DNA of 20,900 nucleotides from a virus. The stretch is from positions 1 through 20,900 of IMG/VR virus record IMGVR_UViG_3300007513_000234; one strand, 5' to 3'. Both the position numbers and the translations under genes were made by a program. Shown piece by piece: positions 3,626-19,250 of the stretch (the stretch's first letter is position 1; each line of letters opens with the position of its first letter). The notes beneath the pieces are model-generated. The model worked only from the letters and a program-made list of their open reading frames with translations. It had not been told where the DNA came from and did no database searches.

Positions 3626-4546
3626 TCAGCTTTCAGGTACTACGAATGCTACAGCAGCGTCATTACGAAGCTCTGCAATACCGTAGATGCAATCTGAAGT
3701 ATACAGATCACCCAGATATTCCTGCTTGTACTGAGTCTGAGAACGTACACCGACCTGCTCTGCGAGACACATAGCGTCTTTGTGCATCAACAGACCAACA
3801 CGGTCAGAACCCTCAGTAGTAGGACAGTTGCTAGAAACGTATACGTCAACACCGTAGATCATACCGATCTTACCAGTCTTGATTGCGTCACCAGAACCGA
3901 TGTACTGCTGCTCAGTGAAGCGGTTGATACCCAACAGGTCGTTAGCCGCTACAGGAGGGATAATCAGTGAACGTCCGTCCATAGGAACGTCAGCGTTATC
4001 CAGAGTCAGGATCATCTTACGGATACCGGCATCAACGATGTCAGTAGCGTTAGGTGAATCTCCAGTAAATGCAGTGGTACCATCACCACCGATTACAGCG
4101 TTCTCGTATGCAGAAGCACCAGAACCACCGACAGTACCACCCTGGAAGCCCTCAGCCAGAGCAAGCAGATCAGTATCTACCTGCTTAGACAGAGCATAAC
4201 CAGCGTCATCAGTGTAGAACTTACGCATGGAAGAGAGAGACTGAACCTCTGCGATGTCCTCGATCAGCTTTGAATACTCGTAGTGCTTGTCCAAAGAGAC
4301 ATTTACTACAGAGTTAGTGGCAGCAGACAGAGTTACCTGAGAGCCAGCAGCCTTAGCAGAAGCTGAACCACGACTAGGGACAGGAATATGGATGGTGTCA
4401 CCCTTCTTGCCCTTATGGTTAATGCGAGTTACGAGGTTAGCAGCAACAAGGTTAGACTTGTATGCGCCGATGACCTCATCAGACCATAGCTCTGGAATAA
4501 AGTTTCCAGCTACGGTAGTAGTTGTGTTGTTAGTACCCAATGGCAT
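3626..4546 (-). CDS. Major capsid protein (HK97-fold type)
   Basis: 306 residues, directly downstream of the scaffold gene, with AGGAG before the ATG. The start (MPLGTNNTTTTVAGNFIPELWSD), the early GKKGDTIHIPVPSRG segment and the C-terminus (GIAELRNDAAVAFVVPES) match the pattern of podophage-type major coat proteins. The central sequence (DAGYALSKQVDTDLLALAEG; PMDGRSLIIPPVAANDLL; GVDVYVSSNCP) is typical of HK97-fold coat spine-helix and A-domain regions. The product would form the icosahedral head on the scaffold. Length and gene order (portal, scaffold, coat) agree. The family call rests on recognition and synteny, not alignment. Confidence 0.88.
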   Translation of the reverse strand: MPLGTNNTTTTVAGNFIPELWSDEVIGAYKSNLVAANLVTRINHKGKKGDTIHIPVPSRGSASAKAAGSQVTLSAATNSVVNVSLDKHYEYSKLIEDIAEVQSLSSMRKFYTDDAGYALSKQVDTDLLALAEGFQGGTVGGSGASAYENAVIGGDGTTAFTGDSPNATDIVDAGIRKMILTLDNADVPMDGRSLIIPPVAANDLLGINRFTEQQYIGSGDAIKTGKIGMIYGVDVYVSSNCPTTEGSDRVGLLMHKDAMCLAEQVGVRSQTQYKQEYLGDLYTSDCIYGIAELRNDAAVAFVVPES

Positions 4547-5410: not shown

Positions 5411-5644
5411 TTACTCTGGCTCTTCCGAGTTTTCCAGAGTCAGCTTAGTAGACTCTTCTAAATTCAATAACATATTGAGAATACTCAACTGCCCTCGAAT
5501 ATAGAACAAGTCCTTTTCATTGTCAATTGACACAACGCTATCTATAGATTTGGCTAGATTTCCCAGCTCTTCTAATAAGTCGATCCAGCCAGCCTCTACA
5601 AAGAGATTGAGCCTATTGTCAAAGAATTCTTTATCGTCCTGCAT
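5411..5644 (-). CDS. Unknown 77-aa acidic helical protein after portal
   Basis: 77 residues, starting 14 bp inside the 3' end of the portal gene, so translation is coupled. The sequence is acidic and looks all-helical (EFFDNRLNLFVEAGWIDLLEEL ... KDLFYIRGQLSILNMLLNLEES). Short proteins of this look (EGW-LL--- then DL-Y-KGQ---L--LL) occur next to portal genes in other podophage-like genomes and are normally left hypothetical. It could assist portal or procapsid assembly; this is inferred from position only. Confidence 0.75.
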   Translation of the reverse strand: MQDDKEFFDNRLNLFVEAGWIDLLEELGNLAKSIDSVVSIDNEKDLFYIRGQLSILNMLLNLEESTKLTLENSEEPE

Positions 5645-7601
5645 TTATAGCCTCTTGCCTAGCCTTTGCGTAGTTCAAAGCTGTCTCAGACTGTAAGTGT
5701 TGCATTTCAGGAATGTTTCGTGCAGTCTCTACCTTGAGATTTGCGATCTTCGCTGCCTTCTCTTCAACTCTAATCGCTTGCTCCTGGAGATTGAGTTGCT
5801 CCTTCGCCATTTCAAGCTCTGGGATTTTGAGGGGCGGTAGTTCTTTAGCCTGTGCGTCCACCATATACTTAGCAGTTTGAGCTTGAGTCTTTTGAACATC
5901 AGCGGCCTTTTGATCCAATTCAAGTTTGACACCCTGCATCTGCATTTCAGTGACCATCTGCTGTTGTTGTTGCTGCCCTGGTGATGGTTGCATTTGCTGC
6001 ATAATAGCCTGAATCATCTGATCTCGATTGGAGAGAGATGAATTCTCGAAGATTCCAAGCAGGATAATCCAGTATGCAGGAGTCCCTTGCTCCATCAGGG
6101 AGAGAAGCTGGATCAATTGAGTCTGCTCTAGCTCCTTGGCCATGATGCCCATACTTGATGATGGAATAAACTTGTAGTCAGCTACAGGATACCGTTGAGG
6201 GTCGAACTGGATCTTTCTCCATGCAGACTTCTTGATTGCAGGAATCAGGAATCCACCCTGGAAATTCATCAAAGTACGCTTCTGTCGCTTGATTGAAGCG
6301 GCTTGAAGCATAGACATACCGGATGCAGTAGCATTTCGAGGATTAGTAGCACCACTTGTCGCCGTATCCATCGAACCAGTACCCATCTGAATCATTCGCT
6401 CAAGCTCTGCTGCCTGGGTAAATGTCTGATTATCCATGTTGCCGAAGTTCATTGGCATCAATACGGAGCGTGGATCACCGTTAGTTACTACGCTCTTACC
6501 TGGGCGAACCTCTAGCTTGGTTCCCCTGGGTAGTCGTGTGGCATCTACACCCATCATTGGGTGAGTAGTAAGTGCCAACCCATCGATTCTTGCTCTCAGC
6601 TCTGCATCGAGAGCCTTTTGAGGATTAAATCCCTTCTCTGCTACGCCTCTTCCCCAGAATTTGTTAGGGACTTGGTCGTGCTGGTAAGCGATGAAGGGTC
6701 GATCTTTCATCATAAAGGGATTTTCTACAGCCCTTAGAACAGAATGATCGTTGGCAATCGTTACTACTGCCTCTACAAGCTCGTCAGAGTCGTAATCGAA
6801 CTCTTGATCTTGAGAGTTATTCAGGAACTTCTTAGGAACCAGCCCCCAGTACTCGACAATCTTTACCTTGTCATCAGCATTGGTGTTATCTGGCTCGTCA
6901 TCAAACCCGAAATCTGCCTTATCATAAGCTCCGATAGGCTTATCTTCATAGACTCCTTCGTTAATGCTGTTGATGATGGAGAATCGTGGCTTCACTACGA
7001 TGTGTGCGACACCAAGAGCCTCATCAACTGAGTTTGCAGACGAATCAATGACGAATTGATTTGGATCAACTGCCTCAAAGCCCACCTGAACGACTGTTTC
7101 TTCGGTCACTCCACGAACTGAGGTCAGAGTACCTTCTACTGGCATCTCTGCTGGCTTAATCTCTACGGTTTCTTCGGTAATGATCTTGCCAATACCTGTT
7201 CCGTAGATAGCGCCGTTGAGGAGAATCTCGTTGATGGCCTCAATCGCCCCTGCTGACTCCAAATCCTCTTTGAGTCGGGTACGAACAAGCCCTGCATCTT
7301 GTGGATTCTCATCTAAAACATCATCACGGAGGTCAAACCAGTTGTCATTTCCGAATGTTGCCTCGGATAACTCAGCTACAGCAGCCTCAATAGCCTGTTG
7401 GAGTGCTGGAGCAACGATCTTTGACCGCTCTGAATCCCTAGTCTTGTCCTCACTCGACCAAATACCACGCCATAGACGGTAATATTCGTTCCATTTCTCC
7501 TCATAGTTCTGTTTTCTATGAGCTTCCCAATCGTCAACACGGGTAGTTACCCATGAAGCAAGTTGGGCTTGAGGGTCTGTATAGACTAATTCATCATTCA
7601 T
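5631..7601 (-). CDS. Portal protein
   Basis: 656 residues, the size of P22-like portals. Features supporting the call are a helical N-terminus (DDWEAHRKQNYEEKWNEYYRLWRG), an internal segment WGRGVAEKGFNPQKALDAELRARIDGLAL, the clip/stem-like part (ATSGATNPRNATASGMSMLQAA), and a long Gln-rich helical C-terminus with a QQQQQQ run followed by charged coiled coil resembling a portal barrel. It follows the large terminase gene by 60 bp, standard synteny. Twelve copies would form the ring through which DNA is packaged and to which the tail attaches. AAGGA precedes the ATG. The portal call is firm; the P22-type subfamily is inferred. Confidence 0.9.
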   Translation of the reverse strand: MNDELVYTDPQAQLASWVTTRVDDWEAHRKQNYEEKWNEYYRLWRGIWSSEDKTRDSERSKIVAPALQQAIEAAVAELSEATFGNDNWFDLRDDVLDENPQDAGLVRTRLKEDLESAGAIEAINEILLNGAIYGTGIGKIITEETVEIKPAEMPVEGTLTSVRGVTEETVVQVGFEAVDPNQFVIDSSANSVDEALGVAHIVVKPRFSIINSINEGVYEDKPIGAYDKADFGFDDEPDNTNADDKVKIVEYWGLVPKKFLNNSQDQEFDYDSDELVEAVVTIANDHSVLRAVENPFMMKDRPFIAYQHDQVPNKFWGRGVAEKGFNPQKALDAELRARIDGLALTTHPMMGVDATRLPRGTKLEVRPGKSVVTNGDPRSVLMPMNFGNMDNQTFTQAAELERMIQMGTGSMDTATSGATNPRNATASGMSMLQAASIKRQKRTLMNFQGGFLIPAIKKSAWRKIQFDPQRYPVADYKFIPSSSMGIMAKELEQTQLIQLLSLMEQGTPAYWIILLGIFENSSLSNRDQMIQAIMQQMQPSPGQQQQQQMVTEMQMQGVKLELDQKAADVQKTQAQTAKYMVDAQAKELPPLKIPELEMAKEQLNLQEQAIRVEEKAAKIANLKVETARNIPEMQHLQSETALNYAKARQEAINAGR

Positions 7602-7661: not shown

Positions 7662-8909
7662 TTAGTAGCCAGCATACTCATCTGAATACTCGTAGTCCTC
7701 CAATTCGATACTGCTTGCAAAATCAGCAATAGATACCTGATCGATATACGCTAAAGCATCAATCAGATCGTCATGGACACCTTTTGCTGGAAAATCAAGG
7801 AGTTGCGTAACGAAATCATGGTTCCAATCAGCTTTATTCAACGTGATCTTGCCATGCTCTAGCCTACCCTGTAATGCCCAAGTAATTCGCTCGGTCTTTT
7901 TCTTACCTCCATGAGTGACTGTGGTGATGTTTATCCATCTACCCTTAGACCTCATTTCATCCTCAAGGTACGGCATGATGGCATTCTTCAAAGAACCTTT
8001 CTCGATGCCAACCGTTGTAGCCTGAACGTCGATAGCCGCTGAGAGGATTCGTGCTGCTGTCTCCTTGATCGACCACCTGCCGTGATAAATATCCTTTACG
8101 AACCACTCATCCGCATTAATTTTAACTATGGCAATAGCTGTTTCATCGAGTTTTTGCTTCGTTCTGGATGCGTCATTCCCTACTGCCTCAAAACCAGCAG
8201 GGTCAACTGCGATAACGTAACTTCCTTGTGTTGGCTCCTCTCCATACTGAATCCAGTCCTCTTTGAAGATTCCTCCGCTGAATGTTTGGAAGCTGGCCTC
8301 GAACTCCTGCCTGAAAGCCGTTGTGGACATGGATTCCTTGGCGTGTTTGATCTCCCTTGGATCAATCAGCGGGTTGTCTGTCGAGTTAAACTGGAAAGCC
8401 TCCCAATCCTCTAAGTCCTGAGCGTCTTGCCATAGCTCGTAAAAGTGATTCTTACCTTCTGGAGTCCCAATAAACAGAGCATCACCCTTAACGTCAGCCA
8501 GTGTTGGCCTCAGAATCATCTCCCAAGTAGCAGGCTTCATCGTTGCGTACTCATCCAGCACGATATACCGATAACCTACTCCACGGAGAGAGTCTGGCTT
8601 ATCAGCACCTTTGAGATGAATCTTGATACCATTGACAAGGGTAATCACCATGTCGGATTCACTGATCTGAGCCGTTACAGAGGATGCAGCATTCTTGATC
8701 TCTCCCCACATGATGCTCTTTGCCATGCCCAAAGTAGGCGCAACGTAAAGTACATCCTTATCTTTCGACTCTAAGCCCTTGAGAATTAACGTCCACATGG
8801 ATAAGTAGGTTTTGCCTCCTCTACGGCCAGCAGCCACAACCTTAAATCGAGACTTAGAATTAAAGACCTCTAACTGCTTCTTGTGGAAATTGACGTTTAA
8901 CTCAGCCAT
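7662..8909 (-). CDS. terL: Terminase large subunit (packaging ATPase and nuclease)
   Basis: 415 residues. The N-terminal ATPase has Walker A GRRGGKT (residues 28-34), Walker B YIVLDE (115-120) and a coupling motif GTPEG (148-152). The C-terminal RNase H-like nuclease has acidic residues at D236 (VDPAG), E303 (GIEKG) and D380/D381 (HDDLIDALAY). The length is compact but normal for this Terminase_6-like group. It cuts concatemeric DNA and pumps it through the portal encoded next. GGGAGAAA lies just upstream of the ATG, which overlaps the end of the four-Cys mini-gene by 8 bp. All key residues appear present. Confidence 0.95.
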   Translation of the reverse strand: MAELNVNFHKKQLEVFNSKSRFKVVAAGRRGGKTYLSMWTLILKGLESKDKDVLYVAPTLGMAKSIMWGEIKNAASSVTAQISESDMVITLVNGIKIHLKGADKPDSLRGVGYRYIVLDEYATMKPATWEMILRPTLADVKGDALFIGTPEGKNHFYELWQDAQDLEDWEAFQFNSTDNPLIDPREIKHAKESMSTTAFRQEFEASFQTFSGGIFKEDWIQYGEEPTQGSYVIAVDPAGFEAVGNDASRTKQKLDETAIAIVKINADEWFVKDIYHGRWSIKETAARILSAAIDVQATTVGIEKGSLKNAIMPYLEDEMRSKGRWINITTVTHGGKKKTERITWALQGRLEHGKITLNKADWNHDFVTQLLDFPAKGVHDDLIDALAYIDQVSIADFASSIELEDYEYSDEYAGY

Positions 8910-9754: not shown

Positions 9755-10055
9755 CTCTCTCCACCGCAATACCAAGCGCCACTGACGGCCTGTGTCGCTC
9801 GACTCTCTTTGCTTCCACGTTGGTAATTGCGCCATCCTCATCCTTGGTGACGGATATAGAGTAAGTAGGGGCTTTCTCTCCCTCCGCCAATAAGTCAAAC
9901 TTATGCGACATACCTATATACTCCATTACATCATTCATATAGTGATGCTCAACCCTAACAGGGACAAATTCAAGCATAGACAATACAGCCAGCATCTCCT
10001 CTGGATCAATAAGCGCAAAGCTAGGCACCTCAAAAACACCAAGATTTCTATTCAT
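9732..10055 (-). CDS. Unknown 107-aa protein
   Basis: Start chosen at ATG 10053-10055 (MNRNLGVFEVPSFALIDPEEM) with GGAGAGGGA just upstream; this overlaps the previous stop by 8 bp, whereas the longer frame to 10082 has no better site. The protein is 107 residues, mixed alpha/beta in appearance, with no membrane segment or Cys cluster. Its C-terminal half (TYSISVTKDEDGAITNVEAKR) looks like beta strands. It lies in the leftward operon upstream of terL. Function unknown. Confidence 0.7.
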   Translation of the reverse strand: MNRNLGVFEVPSFALIDPEEMLAVLSMLEFVPVRVEHHYMNDVMEYIGMSHKFDLLAEGEKAPTYSISVTKDEDGAITNVEAKRVERHRPSVALGIAVERDEQSAKD

Positions 10056-10395
10056 CCTTATCCCTCTCCACTGTAACTTCAAGCGCCGTTGAGGGCATAT
10101 CAGTCAGAGCTTGAGATTCCTCAGTCACATCTATCACGTCTTGCACCTCATCTGGCAAGTCCTCCAAAGCCCCTACATTAATAGATATGTTGTAGTCAGT
10201 CTTGGTCTGACGAACATCCACACTCTTATGAGCAGGAAGTATCCGATCTACCAGCATCTTCAAGCACTGAGTATCACCATCCAAACCCATAGTTATCACC
10301 TTCTGCATAATCAAAGGACTCTTGTCCTCCAACATCGACCGAACCATCTCCCTCGGCTTCTTACGAACAGGCAATCTACGATTCTTATGCCCCAT
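10048..10395 (-). CDS. Candidate terminase small subunit
   Basis: 115 residues. A basic start (MGHKNRRLPVRKKPREMVRSM) leads into LIMQKVITMGLDGDTQCLKMLVDRILPAHKSV. That block resembles the DUF5681-like region of phage small-terminase-type proteins (ALEGD--ALK--LDRI-P). The C-terminus is acidic (ALEDLPDEVQDVIDVTEES). It lies in the packaging operon upstream of terL, where a small terminase is expected, and no other candidate is evident. GAGGGA precedes the ATG. The pattern and position are visible; the function is inferred. Confidence 0.55.
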   Translation of the reverse strand: MGHKNRRLPVRKKPREMVRSMLEDKSPLIMQKVITMGLDGDTQCLKMLVDRILPAHKSVDVRQTKTDYNISINVGALEDLPDEVQDVIDVTEESQALTDMPSTALEVTVERDKDE

Positions 10396-10687
10396 AACTA
10401 TCCCTCACAACCTCACCAAAAGTGACAAGCGCTCCCTCAATACCCCTCAAACGCTCGTACTCAGACCTCTCAACCAAAACATCATCACCAATCTTCTCCA
10501 GCATCGACAAAACAACCATTGCGTAAACAGGCACCTTCTCCCAATTGTAAAAGCTGGAAATCTGAGAACCCGTCATCTCACTAAGCATCTCCTTCGTGTA
10601 ACCATAACGCTTCATCTTAGCCCAATACTGCTTCTTGGTAAGCGGCTTAACCTCTTTTTCCTCTGTATTTTCGTCTATTTCGCTCAT
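10385..10687 (-). CDS. Small HTH-like DNA-binding protein, first gene of leftward operon
   Basis: 100 residues. The central part YGYTKEMLSEMTGSQISSFYNWEKVPVYAMVVLSML resembles XRE-type helix-turn-helix proteins (L---TG-S---I--WE---VP-YA---L). The flanks are acidic at the N-terminus and helical at the C-terminus. It is the first gene after the sigma70-like leftward promoter. Its position suggests regulation of late transcription, or DNA recognition for packaging as an alternative. The ATG has only a weak GGGAA upstream. The HTH call is by eye. Confidence 0.6.
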   Translation of the reverse strand: MSEIDENTEEKEVKPLTKKQYWAKMKRYGYTKEMLSEMTGSQISSFYNWEKVPVYAMVVLSMLEKIGDDVLVERSEYERLRGIEGALVTFGEVVRDSYGA

Positions 10688-10742
10688 TTCCCATACTTTC
10701 TCTATGTTTGGTTTTATACTCCCTCGGAAGCACGTCTATCGA

Positions 10743-10771
10743 AGTCTATATATGGCACTGACAAATGTCAA
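10743..10771 (-). promoter_or_regulatory. Sigma70-like leftward promoter
   Basis: On the minus strand TTGACA (10766-10771) is followed after exactly 17 bp by TAGACT (10743-10748). The -35 is a perfect match and the -10 a 4/6 match. It would start about 50 nt upstream of the HTH gene and drive the leftward packaging operon. TGACA-aa-TGTCA dyad symmetry overlaps the -35 and could be an operator. Confidence 0.5.
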
Positions 10772-10893
10772 GGGGGGTAGAAGTTGAAATGATTTGGGTG
10801 GGGTATAGCATATTCAATTCGATACCCAAAACACCCCCTCCCCCCCTCATTCTCAGACAAGTACCTAATCCGTAAGTTATTGATATATATGAC

Positions 10894-10907
10894 GTTCCAC
10901 GTGGAAC
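10894..10907. promoter_or_regulatory. parS-like palindrome GTTCCACGTGGAAC
   Basis: A perfect 14-bp palindrome whose core equals the ParB-binding parS core known from Pseudomonas-type chromosomes. The flanking bases are C and A, so it differs by one base from the 16-bp form with T and A. No ParA or ParB homologue is visible in the window. The site lies in non-coding DNA between the two transcription arms. Binding by host ParB, or by a phage protein, is inferred. Confidence 0.6.
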
Positions 10908-10967
10908 ATGCCAGGAATTGAGGCCGATAGGTGATGAAGGGCGCGGCTCTGACTCCCTGGTATGGTT

Positions 10968-10996
10968 TTGGATGTCTTCTTACTATCTAATATAGT
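10968..10996 (+). promoter_or_regulatory. Candidate rightward promoter
   Basis: TTGGAT (10968-10973), a 17-bp spacer, then TATAGT (10991-10996). The -10 is a 5/6 match and the -35 weaker. It points at the right arm, whose first clear gene starts about 285 bp downstream. The -10 lies in the dyad TACTAT-ctaat-ATAGTA, which could bind a regulator. Confidence 0.35.
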
Positions 10997-11024
10997 ATGG
11001 AGTGTTGGGTTGTTGACGGCTGCT

Positions 11025-11139
11025 GGTATTCTCTTTTTTTGTTTCCGCGCGTTGATTTTCCTGTACCTGTTTACTCTACTCACTACTATATATGGTGAGA
11101 GTAGATACAGTCGGTATTCTCTTTTTCTTTTTCGGCGCG
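11025..11139 (+). repeat. 27-bp direct repeat pair (11025-11051 and 11113-11139)
   Basis: Both copies begin GGTATTCTCTTTTT, continue with a T-rich stretch and end in a GC-rich GCGCG; 24 of 27 positions agree. They lie 88 bp apart in the same orientation, upstream of the first rightward gene. No coding function is visible. They could be regulator or replication-protein sites or twin phage promoters. Confidence 0.7.
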
Positions 11140-11279
11140 ACACCAGATAAATCCATTTGATACCCGATAGAGTATCCCAATGCGGATAGATACATTTATT
11201 ACTGTACTTGTGTGCAGCTTCGTGTACTATTGCAGCTATGGATCAATTGATCCTACTTTTACTACAACAGGAGAATGTT

Positions 11280-11519
11280 ATGCGTAATGAAATTCAATCC
11301 ATTAGAAATGCAGTATCGAATTGGACCTCCGACAATGGAGGTTTAACCGACCATGCCACAGATGTTATGCGTTTAGCTGACTACGCAGAAGCTCTCCTTT
11401 ACACAGGTCAACCTGACTTAGCCGAAACAGAAACCTGGTATCGCTTATCTTATCAAGCAAGCTCAGGTCTTGAATCTGATTTGATGGCACTAATTGCCAG
11501 ATTTCACAACATGGGTTGA
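11280..11519 (+). CDS. Unknown 79-aa helical protein, first gene of right arm
   Basis: Start chosen at ATG 11280 (MRNEIQSIRNAVSNWTSDNGG), with CAGGAGA about 9 nt upstream; the longer frame from 11208 has no ribosome site. The 79 residues look helical and acidic, with repeated MRLADYAEALLY / DLMALIARFHNMG amphipathic segments. No motif is recognised. As the first gene downstream of the control region it is a likely early host-takeover gene, by position only. Confidence 0.7.
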   Translation: MRNEIQSIRNAVSNWTSDNGGLTDHATDVMRLADYAEALLYTGQPDLAETETWYRLSYQASSGLESDLMALIARFHNMG

Positions 11520-14759: not shown

Positions 14760-15197
14760 ATGCACACTGACGAAATTTTGCTATCGCTGGATGACGTGAA
14801 GCCAAACGGAAAAGGGCAGTGGACTTCGCGTTGCCCGAATCAGGATCATCGATCAGCCAGAGTATCTATCATGGATACCGGCGAAAAAACATTGATCCGG
14901 TGTTGGGGCGGATGCAGCACGGGTGACGTTATATCTGCTATCGGCCTGACATTCTCAGACTTATATCATCATGATATGACCGTTGAGAAAAGACAGGAAA
15001 GGAAACAGATTCACACCTATGAACAGCTATGCTTTGAACGGACATTGCTCCAGCTTGCTCACAATAGCAGATCATCATTAAGCGATGAGGATAAGAAGAG
15101 AGCGAATCAAGCGCATAGACGATTGAGGGATGCAGGATGGCTGACCATGACAGATAAACTAATAGAACAAGATAAGAGGCAGCTATGCTGGCACTGA
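14760..15197 (+). CDS. CHC2-type primase zinc-domain protein
   Basis: 145 residues from ATG 14760, which follows GGAGGAAAA; a GTG five codons earlier is less likely. The region KGQWTSRCPNQDH ... TLIRCWGGCSTGDVISAIG gives C25, H30, C48 and C52, the arrangement of the DnaG CHC2 zinc finger, followed by a helical segment (LTFSDLYHHDM). No TOPRIM catalytic domain is present; the C-terminal half is helical and charged. So it is a primase-type DNA-reading zinc domain without the catalytic part. It overlaps the SF2 helicase gene by 13 bp, suggesting a complex or coordinated action. It could help primer-site recognition or be an accessory factor. Confidence 0.75.
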   Translation: MHTDEILLSLDDVKPNGKGQWTSRCPNQDHRSARVSIMDTGEKTLIRCWGGCSTGDVISAIGLTFSDLYHHDMTVEKRQERKQIHTYEQLCFERTLLQLAHNSRSSLSDEDKKRANQAHRRLRDAGWLTMTDKLIEQDKRQLCWH

Positions 15198-16690
15198 GAG
15201 ACAATCAGCAGGAAGTTAAGCGCAAGGTATATCAGGAAATAAGAGGCGGGAAGAAGCGCGTTGTAGTCCAGGCAATGACATCATTCGGGAAAACAGCCCT
15301 TGCAGCATCAATAGTGCTGGATTGTTTGGAGAAGGGACACTCTGTAATTTTTACTGCTCCACTTTTGACCCTTGTAGAGCAGACAATCGATGAATTCGTG
15401 AAGTTTGGTATCCCCAAATCCAAGATAGGGGTAGTCCAGGCAGATAATCCGCTCAAGGACTTCTCCAGACCAGTACAAATCTGCTCGATTCAATCCCTAG
15501 CGGCCATCATGCGAAGAGATAAGCATGGTTGGTTGAAGTATTGCGATGGAAAAATGCTCATCCACGATGAAACCCACCTGCTATACAAGGCGCACATGAT
15601 GATGAACGAGGCAGCATCGATGCCCGTTATCGGTCTATCTGCTACGCCGTGGAGGAAGGGATTAGGCAAATACTACGACTCATTGGTGCATGGTCAATCC
15701 ACCAGAGAGCTAATAGATAATGGTGATCTATGCGACTATGTGGCCTACTCTCACTATATCCCTGATTTGAAGGGAATCAGCACATCGAATGGAGACTTTA
15801 ACGCTCAAGAAACTGGAGACAAATACGGCAATACAGTCATAGGCGACATCGTTCAGACGTGGATGAAACACGCCGAAGGTAAGAAAACCATCCTGTTTGC
15901 CCCTAGAGTAGTCGATGCAGAACGATTCGCTGCTGAATTCCGTCACATAGGATTCAATGCGGTATCGGTCAACGGCTACATGGATCAGGAGGATTGTGCC
16001 AAAGAGATCGAGCGATTCAGGAATAGCGATATAACCATCCTATGCTCAGTTGCTAAACTGGCAACCGGATTCTCAGTAAAAGACGTTGAGTGCATCATTG
16101 ACGCTCAACCAACCAAGTCCCTGATGCGTCATATCCAGAAGCTAGGCAGAGGGCTTAGAACGCATCCAGATAAAGATAAGGTAATCATCTTGGACAATGC
16201 AGGGAATCTAATCCGCAACGGCCTACCCGATGGGACTTATCCACAAGTGCTGGATGATGGCAAAACGAAAGTCTCAGACCGTAGAGACAAGAAAGAGCCA
16301 GAGCCTAAGCAATGCTCTAAGTGTAATTACATTAAGCCGCCTAGAGTCCATGAATGCCCTTCTTGTGGTCATAAGCCAAAGCAGATCAGCCAGCTTGAGA
16401 TAGAGAAGGGTGAGTTGAGATTGCTCAAGGGCAAAGAATTGAACCGTAAAGCACCCTGGGACTACAAGATTACCTTTATGTCTGGCCTGAAAACCCACGC
16501 CCACATCAACGGCTATAGTCATGGATGGGTATCGCATACCTATAGGGATAAGTTTGGGGTATGGCCGAATGATCCGAAACTAAAACAAGCACCAAAAGGG
16601 GAGGTTACAGAAGATGTCCAGCGATGGATCAAGTACAAACAGCTTAAATACGCACTCGGTAGACAGAAAGGAGATAAAAGATCGGCGTGA
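15185..16690 (+). CDS. RadD-like SF2 DNA helicase with C4 zinc finger
   Basis: 501 residues. Motif I is MTSFGKTA (31-38), motif II DETH (128-131), motif III LSATPWRKG (151-159) and motif VI QKLGRGLRT (318-326), all in SF2 DEAD/DEAH order. ILCSVAKLATGFSVKDVECII (285-305) and VIILDNAGNLIRNG (333-346) match RadD-like and phage helicases of the epsilon15 type. A C4 zinc finger follows (C377, C380, C391, C394). The C-terminal domain (residues ~400-501) includes WVSHTYRDKFGVWPND, frequent in this phage group. It should unwind or remodel DNA for replication or repair. It is translationally coupled to the primase zinc-domain gene; no DnaB-type helicase is seen in the window. Confidence 0.9.
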   Translation: MLALRDNQQEVKRKVYQEIRGGKKRVVVQAMTSFGKTALAASIVLDCLEKGHSVIFTAPLLTLVEQTIDEFVKFGIPKSKIGVVQADNPLKDFSRPVQICSIQSLAAIMRRDKHGWLKYCDGKMLIHDETHLLYKAHMMMNEAASMPVIGLSATPWRKGLGKYYDSLVHGQSTRELIDNGDLCDYVAYSHYIPDLKGISTSNGDFNAQETGDKYGNTVIGDIVQTWMKHAEGKKTILFAPRVVDAERFAAEFRHIGFNAVSVNGYMDQEDCAKEIERFRNSDITILCSVAKLATGFSVKDVECIIDAQPTKSLMRHIQKLGRGLRTHPDKDKVIILDNAGNLIRNGLPDGTYPQVLDDGKTKVSDRRDKKEPEPKQCSKCNYIKPPRVHECPSCGHKPKQISQLEIEKGELRLLKGKELNRKAPWDYKITFMSGLKTHAHINGYSHGWVSHTYRDKFGVWPNDPKLKQAPKGEVTEDVQRWIKYKQLKYALGRQKGDKRSA

Positions 16691-16877: not shown

Positions 16878-17142
16878 CAGAATTTACCTTGGAGAGTATC
16901 GCAAGTCTCTAAGATCAATGCTTATGAAAAAGTATGAGACAGAAGGGGCTAAAACAGCCGCACAGCAGGAGCGTAACGCTATGGCTGACCCTGAGTACCT
17001 AGAGCTGCTAGAAGGGCTGAGAGAGGCTGTAGAGACCGAAGAGAAGCTACGTTATGAATTAGTGTTACATGAACAGGAATTCGATGCCTGGAAATCCAGG
17101 CTTTACGCAAAAACCGCTGAGATGAAAGCATACGGCGGCTAA
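16801..17142 (+). CDS. Coiled-coil 113-aa protein
   Basis: 113 residues, CGGAGA eight nt before the ATG. Almost entirely helical and charged (EKEQKLTEIRRIVADYATAK; LEGLREAVETEEKLRYELVLHEQEF), consistent with a coiled coil. No catalytic motif. It lies between the helicase and the regulator and ends convergently against the leftward repressor with a 4-bp overlap. A Gam-like or accessory recombination role is possible from context but not shown. Confidence 0.75.
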   Translation: MNQIEKEQKLTEIRRIVADYATAKANRIYLGEYRKSLRSMLMKKYETEGAKTAAQQERNAMADPEYLELLEGLREAVETEEKLRYELVLHEQEFDAWKSRLYAKTAEMKAYGG

Positions 17143-17480
17143 TTCCATCTGTAGACGCAATTCTGACATTTGACCGGAATATCGTTACCCAATACAGGGT
17201 CATCCTCTGTTTCGGCTATGTCAGGACGAAGATAGGCAAACGAGATACCTTCATTCCAGCTCTCAACCGTCCAGGCATGACTCTCTGGAAGTGGAAGGTT
17301 TTTGTACCTCATATTGTAGAGAGTGCGATGATTCAAATCCAGACGGCTTGCAAATTCCTTGATACCACCAAAGAAATGAGTCGCTGCTTCCTTAGCCATA
17401 ACAGCCCTTTCGTGAAGATTCTCGATCTCATTCAGGTCAACAGTGTGCGCTCGTTTCCAGTAATTTTTAGGTAGTGCCAT
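17139..17480 (-). CDS. Leftward HTH transcription regulator (repressor-like)
   Basis: Start chosen at ATG 17480 (MALPKNYWKRAHTVDLNEIE), preceded by GGAGAG; the longer frame from 17531 lies in the promoter region. 113 residues with a helix-turn-helix at about 38-60 (GGIKEFASRLDLNHRTLYNM), followed by a beta/acidic C-terminal part and a terminal CQNC pair. It is the only regulator-like gene facing left in this part of the arm, with divergent promoters upstream, the layout of phage switch genes. The dyads at 17514-17524 and 17549-17567 are candidate operators for autoregulation and control of the recombination operon. No peptidase (LexA-type) domain is present. Confidence 0.75.
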   Translation of the reverse strand: MALPKNYWKRAHTVDLNEIENLHERAVMAKEAATHFFGGIKEFASRLDLNHRTLYNMRYKNLPLPESHAWTVESWNEGISFAYLRPDIAETEDDPVLGNDIPVKCQNCVYRWN

Positions 17481-17510
17481 TTTTCTCTCCAAAAAAAGAT
17501 GAATTATTTG

Positions 17511-17567
17511 TTGACAATAATTGTACATCAAGCTACATTTGACCTCAAGGTTTCATTGGAAACCAAT
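17511..17567. promoter_or_regulatory. Overlapping divergent promoters and candidate operators
   Basis: Rightward: TTGACA (17511-17516), 17 bp, TACATT (17534-17539). Leftward: TTGAGG (17543-17548), 17 bp, TACAAT (17520-17525). They face each other and overlap. Dyads ACAAT-a-ATTGT (17514-17524), GGTTTC-attg-GAAACC (17549-17564) and ATTGG-aaa-CCAAT (17555-17567) lie on or next to them. Arrangement and spacing support a regulated switch for the HTH gene and the operon from 17591. Confidence 0.6.
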
Positions 17568-17590: not shown

Positions 17591-17803
17591 GTGAACGACT
17601 ATGAGAGCGAAGAATTGCTTGGCCTTGGTGACGATATGTCTGCCATGCAGGAGGAGAGATACCTGCTGACCATGCTGGAGGAAGTACAGCGAATCATCGA
17701 CGGCAAATCAGCCATGCTACTTTCTAGTGAGCATTGTCGAGCAATGTACAAAATAATTAAAAATGAGGCACCTAATCTCTTTAATTCTGAGGAGACTTTC
17801 TAG
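17591..17803 (+). CDS. Unknown 70-aa acidic protein, GTG start
   Basis: 70 residues from GTG 17591 with TGGAGA nine nt upstream. Acidic and helical (SAMQEERYLLTMLEEVQRIIDGKS), no motif. It is the first gene of the recombination operon after the divergent promoter region. Its last codons and stop lie in the first copy of a 14-bp tandem repeat whose second copy is the ribosome site of the next gene. Function unknown. Confidence 0.75.
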   Translation: MNDYESEELLGLGDDMSAMQEERYLLTMLEEVQRIIDGKSAMLLSSEHCRAMYKIIKNEAPNLFNSEETF

Positions 17804-17816
17804 AGGAGACTTTCTA
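17789..17816 (+). repeat. Tandem 14-bp duplication of a ribosome-binding site
   Basis: GAGGAGACTTTCTA occurs twice, head to tail, at 17789-17802 and 17803-17816, directly before the ATG of the Sak3 gene. Copy 1 encodes the last residues and stop of the 70-aa gene; copy 2 is untranslated and supplies GAGGAGA at good spacing. With one copy, the stop and start would overlap as TAATG. Confidence 0.95.
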
Positions 17817-18266
17817 ATGGATTTCAATGATCTGGTAAAAAGCACCACCAAGACAAAACTTGGGAGCAAGGTAGAGCAGAAGGGTAATTTTGATTACCTC
17901 AGTTGGGCGCACGCCATCCATATTCTCGGAGTGGCTAACCCTGACTTCACCTATGAGGTTAAGCACTTTCCTCAACTGTTCACCCGTAAGGATGAGAACG
18001 GAGAGGTTGAATACTACGTCTTGGACGGCGTGACAGTCCCATACAACCGCACTAACACTGGATACTATGTTGAGGTATCTGTAACCGTAGGGAAGGTCAC
18101 ACGCACCCAGATTCACCCTGTACTAGACGGACGGAATCAGCCTGTCGCCCAACCATCTAGCTTTCAGATTAACACCAGTATTCAGAGGGCATTAGCTAAG
18201 GCTATAGCACTTCATGGTGTAGCACTCAGCTTGTATGCAGGTGAAGACTTGGAGGACATCCAGTGA
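17817..18266 (+). CDS. Sak3-type (DUF1071) single-strand annealing protein
   Basis: 149 residues from ATG 17817 (MDFNDLVKSTTKTKLGSKVE); the longer frame from 17763 reads through the upstream gene. Family hallmarks are NFDYLSWAHAIHILG (24-38), VKHFPQLFTR (48-57), YYVEVSVTVGKVTRTQIHPVLDGRNQPV (83-110) and SFQINTSIQRALAKAIALHGVALSLYAGED (115-144). DUF1071/Sak3 proteins anneal complementary single strands in phage recombination, usually paired with an exonuclease, and one lies just downstream. It may also act with host RecA and the SSB-like protein. This is among the most secure calls of the right arm. Confidence 0.88.
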   Translation: MDFNDLVKSTTKTKLGSKVEQKGNFDYLSWAHAIHILGVANPDFTYEVKHFPQLFTRKDENGEVEYYVLDGVTVPYNRTNTGYYVEVSVTVGKVTRTQIHPVLDGRNQPVAQPSSFQINTSIQRALAKAIALHGVALSLYAGEDLEDIQ

Positions 18267-18424
18267 CTCCATACGACCAGAAAAGAGCCATTGTGCTAAT
18301 TGAGGAGCTACTTGAGGAGGTGAAGGTGGCAGAACGTGAAACCAATACCCATAGAGCATTCCGAAAAGAGCTGATCTCTATGACTGAGGAATTTATGACG
18401 GAGATTACTGATGAAGCTTACTAA
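18263..18424 (+). CDS. Unknown 53-aa helical protein, GTG start
   Basis: 53 residues: MTPYDQKRAIVLIEELLEEV, then KVAERETNTHRAFRKELISM and TEEFMTEITDEAY. GTG 18263 overlaps the Sak3 stop (GTGA), and TTGGAGG lies 7 nt upstream, a very good site. The 3' end overlaps the exonuclease start by 14 bp. Fully helical, acidic, no motif. Its tight placement between the annealing protein and the exonuclease suggests a linker or accessory factor of the recombination pair. Confidence 0.7.
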   Translation: MTPYDQKRAIVLIEELLEEVKVAERETNTHRAFRKELISMTEEFMTEITDEAY

Positions 18425-19250
18425 CAAGCAGGGTCTTCCAGAAGCCATTGTAAATGCAGTCAAAAACGACTCTTACAGTGCTGGCAACAGTGATATTTCA
18501 GCTACTCGTTTGATTTCTCCCCCTCAACAGGTTTACTTGCAGAAGGAATGGTACGACAAGATTGAAGAGGATGTGTCTGGTCGCATTTGGTCACTACTTG
18601 GTCAGTCTGTTCACCATATTCTTGAGAGAGCAGCGAATTATAGCGACATTGTTGAAGAGAGATACTTCACTGAGATTAATGGATGGAATGTCTCCGGTCA
18701 GGTAGACCTGATCTCTAAAGATGCACTCTATGATTTCAAGGTGACATCATCTTGGTCAGTCCTCAATGGACATAAGATTGAGTGGGAGCAGCAGCTTAAT
18801 GTTCTTCATTATCTAGCTGATGACCCTGATGTTGAGGAACTAAAGATCATTGCTATCCTCAGAGATTGGTCTAAATCCAATGCGATGAGAAGCCATGACT
18901 ATCCACGATCTCAGGTTATCGAGCTAGATATTCCTCTATGGACTAAGGAAGAACAAGAGGAGTACGTTAAAGAGCGTGTGGTTCTTCATCAGAGAGCGCA
19001 ACTAGAGCATGAGTATCCTAAATGCTCTCCAGAAGAGAGATGGCAAAAGGATGATGTTTGGGCGCTGATGAAGGAAGGTAGAAAGAGTGCTGTTAAACTC
19101 CATTCCTCTGAGGAATCAGTAGAAGAACACTTGGAGAACATGGACAACAAGCACTATATCGAGTTTCGTCCAGGTGAGTCTATTCGATGTAAGGATTACT
19201 GTTCTGTTAATAAATTTTGCAATCAATACAAGGAGTTAATCAATGAGTGA
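18411..19250 (+). CDS. Cas4/RecB-like PD-(D/E)XK exonuclease with four Cys
   Basis: 279 residues. The nuclease core shows GQSVHHILERA (64-74), VSGQVDLI (94-101; D99), ALYDFKVTSSW (105-115; D108, K110) and EWEQQLNVLHYLA (124-136; Q128), the RecB/Cas4 order. Cys at 205, 260, 264 and 270 (RCKDYCSVNKFCNQY at the end) could bind an iron-sulfur cluster as in Cas4/AddB-type enzymes. No helicase domain. In phages such enzymes digest one strand of a duplex so that the annealing protein can act, so it forms a pair with the Sak3-type gene upstream. A CRISPR role is not suggested: no array or cas genes are present. Confidence 0.85.
   Translation: MKLTNKQGLPEAIVNAVKNDSYSAGNSDISATRLISPPQQVYLQKEWYDKIEEDVSGRIWSLLGQSVHHILERAANYSDIVEERYFTEINGWNVSGQVDLISKDALYDFKVTSSWSVLNGHKIEWEQQLNVLHYLADDPDVEELKIIAILRDWSKSNAMRSHDYPRSQVIELDIPLWTKEEQEEYVKERVVLHQRAQLEHEYPKCSPEERWQKDDVWALMKEGRKSAVKLHSSEESVEEHLENMDNKHYIEFRPGESIRCKDYCSVNKFCNQYKELINE

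Follow-up and report, generated by a model that had tools for sequence, protein, structure and literature searches.

A parS-like palindrome in the control region of a phage contig and the possible recruitment of host ParB

What is a perfect copy of the core of a bacterial centromere doing in the control region of a phage in which no ParB is visible? ParB–parS is the most widespread bacterial chromosome segregation system; should the carriage of parS be routine among phages lacking ParB, these phages would be connected to the segregation, SMC-loading or ParB-silencing functions of their hosts, with a bearing on phage DNA positioning, inheritance without integration, or regulation. Our search, which was directed to the open-access literature, found no publication that describes parS of the host type in phages without ParB. 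The site was noticed in a virus record of 20.9 kb, all of which was analysed and is referred to here as the window.

The features of the window are presented in Table 1. Related records reach 37–38 kb, so a large share of the genome of this phage is probably missing. The packaging/structural arm, with TerL, the portal and the major head protein, is on the minus strand to the left of ~10.7 kb, and the replication arm, with a helicase, a Sak-like annealing protein and an exonuclease, is on the plus strand to the right of ~11.3 kb. No integrase is seen in the window, part of the genome being probably absent from it. The promoter-like sequence of the structural arm that is nearest to the parS-like site is ~120 bp from it. 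The control region also contains a 27-nt direct repeat (89%), GGTATTCTCTTTTT..TTTCCGCGCG, at 11025–11051 and 11113–11139 with a spacing of 88 bp. The second palindrome listed in Table 1 could be a weak terminator or an operator. Positions 1–2400 form a long repetitive left end with units common to another record (L008); this is probably a tail or fibre gene rich in repeats and truncated where the contig ends.

Table 1. Features of the window. L323 and L367 are contigs of a Methylophaga MAG.
Feature	Position	Strand	Remarks
Divergent non-coding control region between the arms	10688..11279	.	partly alignable with L323 1-280
parS-like palindrome GTTCCACGTGGAAC	10894..10907 (extended 10893-10908)	.	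core identical to that of parS on the Methylophaga MAG chromosome
Sigma-70-like promoter TTGACA-17-TAGACT, structural arm	10743..10771	-	consensus match alone; TTGACA conserved in L323
G-rich run	10834..10848	-	conserved in L323
IHF-consensus-like TATCAATAACTTA	10873..10885	-	8 bp from parS; weak, chance possible
Second perfect 14-bp palindrome GGATCAATTGATCC	11240..11253	.	precedes first replication-arm gene
Small protein, first structural-arm gene	10385..10687	-	L323 homologue 42%; no family match
Possible small terminase subunit	10048..10395	-	L323 homologue 63%; function assigned from position
Terminase large subunit (TerL)	7662..8909	-	phrog_2, 1.7e-45
Portal protein	5631..7601	-	phrog_1216
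Major head protein	3626..4546	-	phrog_267
First small replication-arm gene	11280..11519	+	ATG 11280 after AGGAG
DNA helicase	15185..16690	+	phrog_16
Sak-like single-strand annealing protein	17763..18266	+	80% homologue on L367
Exonuclease	18411..19250	+	54% homologue on L367

An earlier inspection of the letters (the sequence-only reading) had described the site as a perfect 14-bp palindrome equal to the parS core, located in non-coding DNA between the two arms, with no ParB in view, and as a 14-mer not expected by chance in 21 kb. The first three points were confirmed: the match to the core is exact (14/14), the site is within the divergent region, and the ParB_N domain (PF02195) was not found in the window. 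Based on an exact search the 14-mer is unique in the window, and no degenerate copies exist elsewhere in it at ≤3 mismatches. The minus strand over the extended site reads ATGTTCCACGTGGAACGT, which equals the parS consensus TGTTCCACGTGGAACA at 15 of 16 positions; the plus-strand flanks of the 14-mer are C..A, and it is the outermost base pair that departs from the consensus. Compared with the chromosomal-type consensus TGTTNCACGTGNAACA, the agreement is likewise 14/14 in the core and 15/16 in the extended form. Concerning chance, the base composition of the window predicts 5.8e-5 copies of this 14-mer, which bears out the earlier claim; of perfect 14-bp palindromes of any spelling, 1.4 are expected and two are present, both in the intergenic region. 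The palindrome per se is therefore unremarkable; its identity with parS is remarkable, and only that identity requires explanation.

Two sets of relatives were compared. In IMG/VR, none of the TerL relatives at 63–80% identity has parS at ≤1 mismatch; such a match exists only in L002, a record with 100% identity to the window that thus says nothing on constraint. The second set was obtained by scanning bacterial genomes with a TerL alignment, and yielded L323, from an uncultured Methylophaga MAG (TerL 82%), and L326, from a Red Sea MAG labelled Acidimicrobiaceae (TerL 49%). The control region of L323 can be aligned with that of the window, conserved elements included (Table 1), but ~50 bp beyond the G-rich run, where the window has parS, the alignment shows none in L323; a different palindrome, CATAATATATATTATG, is found near the homologous spot. 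L326 has the same divergent layout as the window and contains an exact parS, GTTCCACGTGAAAC, at 8840 between the arms, 1.16 kb before TerL and ~120 bp before the first late gene, the product of which is similar to the possible small terminase subunit of the window. Among the ~36 relatives with ≥1.5 kb upstream of TerL, parS is found only in the window and in L326; in the 3.5-kb upstream regions of all relatives together, 0.002–0.008 exact copies are expected. That two phages which have diverged strongly, and whose flanks are unconserved, both have parS in this region argues against chance, and its absence from L323 shows gain and loss of the site. The sequence-only reading had proposed this comparison of the intergenic region, and had stated that it would be refuted if related phages lacked the palindrome or let it drift and if neither host nor phage ParB bound it. 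The first half of this goes against the reading, as the site is lacking at the homologous place in the relative with 82% TerL identity and is also lacking in most others; on the other side is the independent exact parS in L326.

Further relatives of the control region were sought in IMG/VR with the helicase, exonuclease and small-gene sequences as queries, and none was found beyond the identical L002 and a differently arranged record (L082). Nor did similarity searches among isolate phages, for which the control region and two contigs carrying parS served as queries, reveal any relative of use. Two other motifs were set aside. Matches to ACGTGGAAC are present in many relatives ~1 kb past the end of TerL, where the predicted layouts place the portal gene, and were discarded as coding. 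The IHF site was considered as a conserved partner of parS and rejected: its consensus is matched upstream of TerL in many relatives, but most of these matches coincide with the beginning of a small coding sequence (xINDL/INNL peptide), and it is coding that accounts for the seeming conservation. In non-coding DNA, the ATCAATAACTTA form of the IHF consensus is found only in the window and L326.

The likely host can be approached through the MAG which contains L323 (G062). Both arms of a close relative of the window's phage are found in it, the left arm on L323 and the right arm on L367, with the annealing protein at 80%. The G062 chromosome has a canonical ParB, and parS in the form ATGTTCCACGTGGAACAT occurs twice beside gyrB-recF-dnaN-dnaA; 17 of its 18 bases equal the window site, and the core at this origin region is identical to that of the window. 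Another phage contig of the same MAG, L369 (TerL phrog_38, portal phrog_1216), also carries GTTCCACGTGGAAC. The same contig has, at 561–1028, a gene for a GroES-like co-chaperonin adjoining the portal and TerL. The tetranucleotide usage of the window is nearest to that of L323 and L367, followed by that of the G062 oriC contig. Binning and composition are the basis for regarding a Methylophaga-type bacterium as the likely host, with the reservation that phage contigs are not binned reliably and that G062 is not clean (its contig L370 has a very different GC).

The occurrence of parS in viral contigs at large was surveyed in IMG/VR, whose records are fragments and may include proviruses and plasmids. 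The canonical parS 16-mer TGTTTCACGTGAAACA has at least 120 matches, compared with one for the single control palindrome used, TGTTTGACGTCAAACA; this difference, in contigs mostly without ParB, makes the idea that ParB-less phages routinely carry parS directly testable. In the canonical loci listed, 72 of 170 parS-type sites are non-coding, compared with 10.9% of the bases (~4-fold enrichment, p ~1e-25), and several parS-type sites are present in 25 of the 119 loci among the matches listed. The exact 14-mer of the window occurs in at least 120 stretches. When the flanks of all its occurrences were considered, the coding ones with T..A proved to be inflated by a single reading frame (24/31 among the matches listed), so the overall flank bias was rejected as evidence and only non-coding occurrences were used. 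Of the 34 non-coding occurrences among the matches listed, 22 are flanked by T..A, where chance would give ~10%, and five by C..A as in the window (0.6 expected); the share put down to chance is an estimated ~4/34. Also, 28 viral records contain ~10 additional perfect GTTNCACGTGNAAC sites, compared with ~0.1 expected. Among the matches listed, ParB_N is present in 0/40 records of one set and in 4/50 with canonical parS, and TerL in 14/40 and 16/50, respectively. Contamination by chromosomal DNA was considered as the origin of these sites and rejected, as none of gyrB, recF, dnaN and dnaA was found in 239 parS loci among the matches listed.

The coding form GTTCCACGTGGAACA is read in the frame GTT CCA CGT GGA ACA (VPRGT) and is probably a conserved protein motif which mimics parS and would mislead naive scans. 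Clusters of 2–12 parS-type sites are seen on the viral contigs L182 (1537–3789), L185 (311–348), L218, L245, L264 and L288; the first five of these records have no ParB_N, and L182 combines four parS-type sites with TerL.

Since parS-type sites are common in viral sequences without ParB, such phages may borrow the segregation protein of the host. There is about an even chance that this is general, i.e. that many tailed phages carry host-type parS without ParB and pirate the host centromere system by loading host ParB, accompanied by ParA or SMC, onto their own DNA, the window being one case. For the window itself, we consider it probable (roughly 0.6) that the palindrome is a host-type parS, by which a phage without visible ParB would recruit host ParB to its control region. 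The recruitment of host ParB had been suggested by the sequence-only reading, and it gains from the L326 site, from the excess of viral parS, mostly without ParB among the matches listed, and from the match to parS of the likely host; it loses from the lack of the site in L323 and most relatives.

ParB binds parS, closes as a CTP clamp and slides (PMC12704722). In Pseudomonas aeruginosa, ParB binds GTTCCAC half sites (PMC10419367), and at the intergenic parS3 and parS4 it represses the adjacent promoters (PMC5521831). Once the phage has infected a cell, or while it is maintained there in the manner of a plasmid, the chromosomal ParB of the host would bind the phage parS, be loaded in the form of a CTP clamp and move across the divergent control region. 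The likeliest consequences, of equal weight, would be that the phage DNA, as an unintegrated genome, is partitioned, held or positioned via the ParA/SMC machinery of the host, and that the neighbouring promoters are damped, as by ParB beside parS3/parS4. A role as a decoy seems less likely for a single site, although phage DNA does multiply during infection.

Three other explanations were weighed against host ParB recruitment. The best surviving, though unlikely, is chance: among the 1.4 perfect palindromes to be expected, one has the parS spelling by accident and was noticed by a reader among many windows. The palindrome count, the single copy and the lack of the site in the 82% TerL relative and most others agree with it, whereas the low expectation for this exact sequence, the exact parS which L326 has independently at the corresponding place between its arms and the parS-type flanks of non-coding viral 14-mers, of which few are attributable to chance, speak against it. 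Somewhat less likely still is that the site is the operator of a phage-encoded regulator and only resembles parS, its role being filled at similar places in relatives by palindromes such as GCATAACATGTTATGC. In four relatives (L031, L038, L068 and L035), 3–4 copies of palindromes different from parS precede genes of the two diverging arms, and the palindrome of L323 would fit as well. The operators of relatives are repeated, however, in contrast to the single window site with no degenerate copy; the adjacent small gene (10385–10687) matches no DNA-binding family, and the parS spelling in both the window and L326 is not expected of an operator. The product of 17139–17531 has a sub-threshold match to YdaS. 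The early-arm palindromes of the four relatives, 14–16 bp long (GCATAACATGTTATGC / GTATAACATGTTATAC; at 5569, 7775, 8433 and 9291 in L031, and at 2264, 4736 and 6051 in L035), are probable operators of phage regulators. The third explanation, also raised by the sequence-only reading, is a ParABS of the phage's own, as in a phage-plasmid, with ParA and ParB encoded beyond the window, and it is improbable: the window is a fragment, the rest of the genome being unseen, and a few canonical-parS viral records among the matches listed do contain ParB_N, but this domain is absent from the window and from 21 records of relatives, three of them of 36.7–38.2 kb, and comparison of the main proteins of the window with PHROGs or Pfam yielded no match to ParA.

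Compared with known systems, the site is closest in sequence to the chromosomal parS of bacteria (P. aeruginosa, Methylophaga-type), with which it shares the core (14/14), the extended form (15/16) and a non-coding location; it differs in being a single copy on phage DNA, away from any parAB or origin cluster. Plasmid prophages such as P1, with its parABS, and mycobacteriophages with parABS (RedRock) have parA and parB genes of their own, and their sites are specific to the encoded proteins. The window resembles them in having a centromere-like site on phage DNA, but no ParB was found here and the site is of the host type. Concerning ParB–parS silencing at parS3 and parS4 of P. aeruginosa (PMC5521831), the genes there are chromosomal, whereas the putative promoters here belong to a phage; common to both is an intergenic parS beside promoters which ParB would cover.
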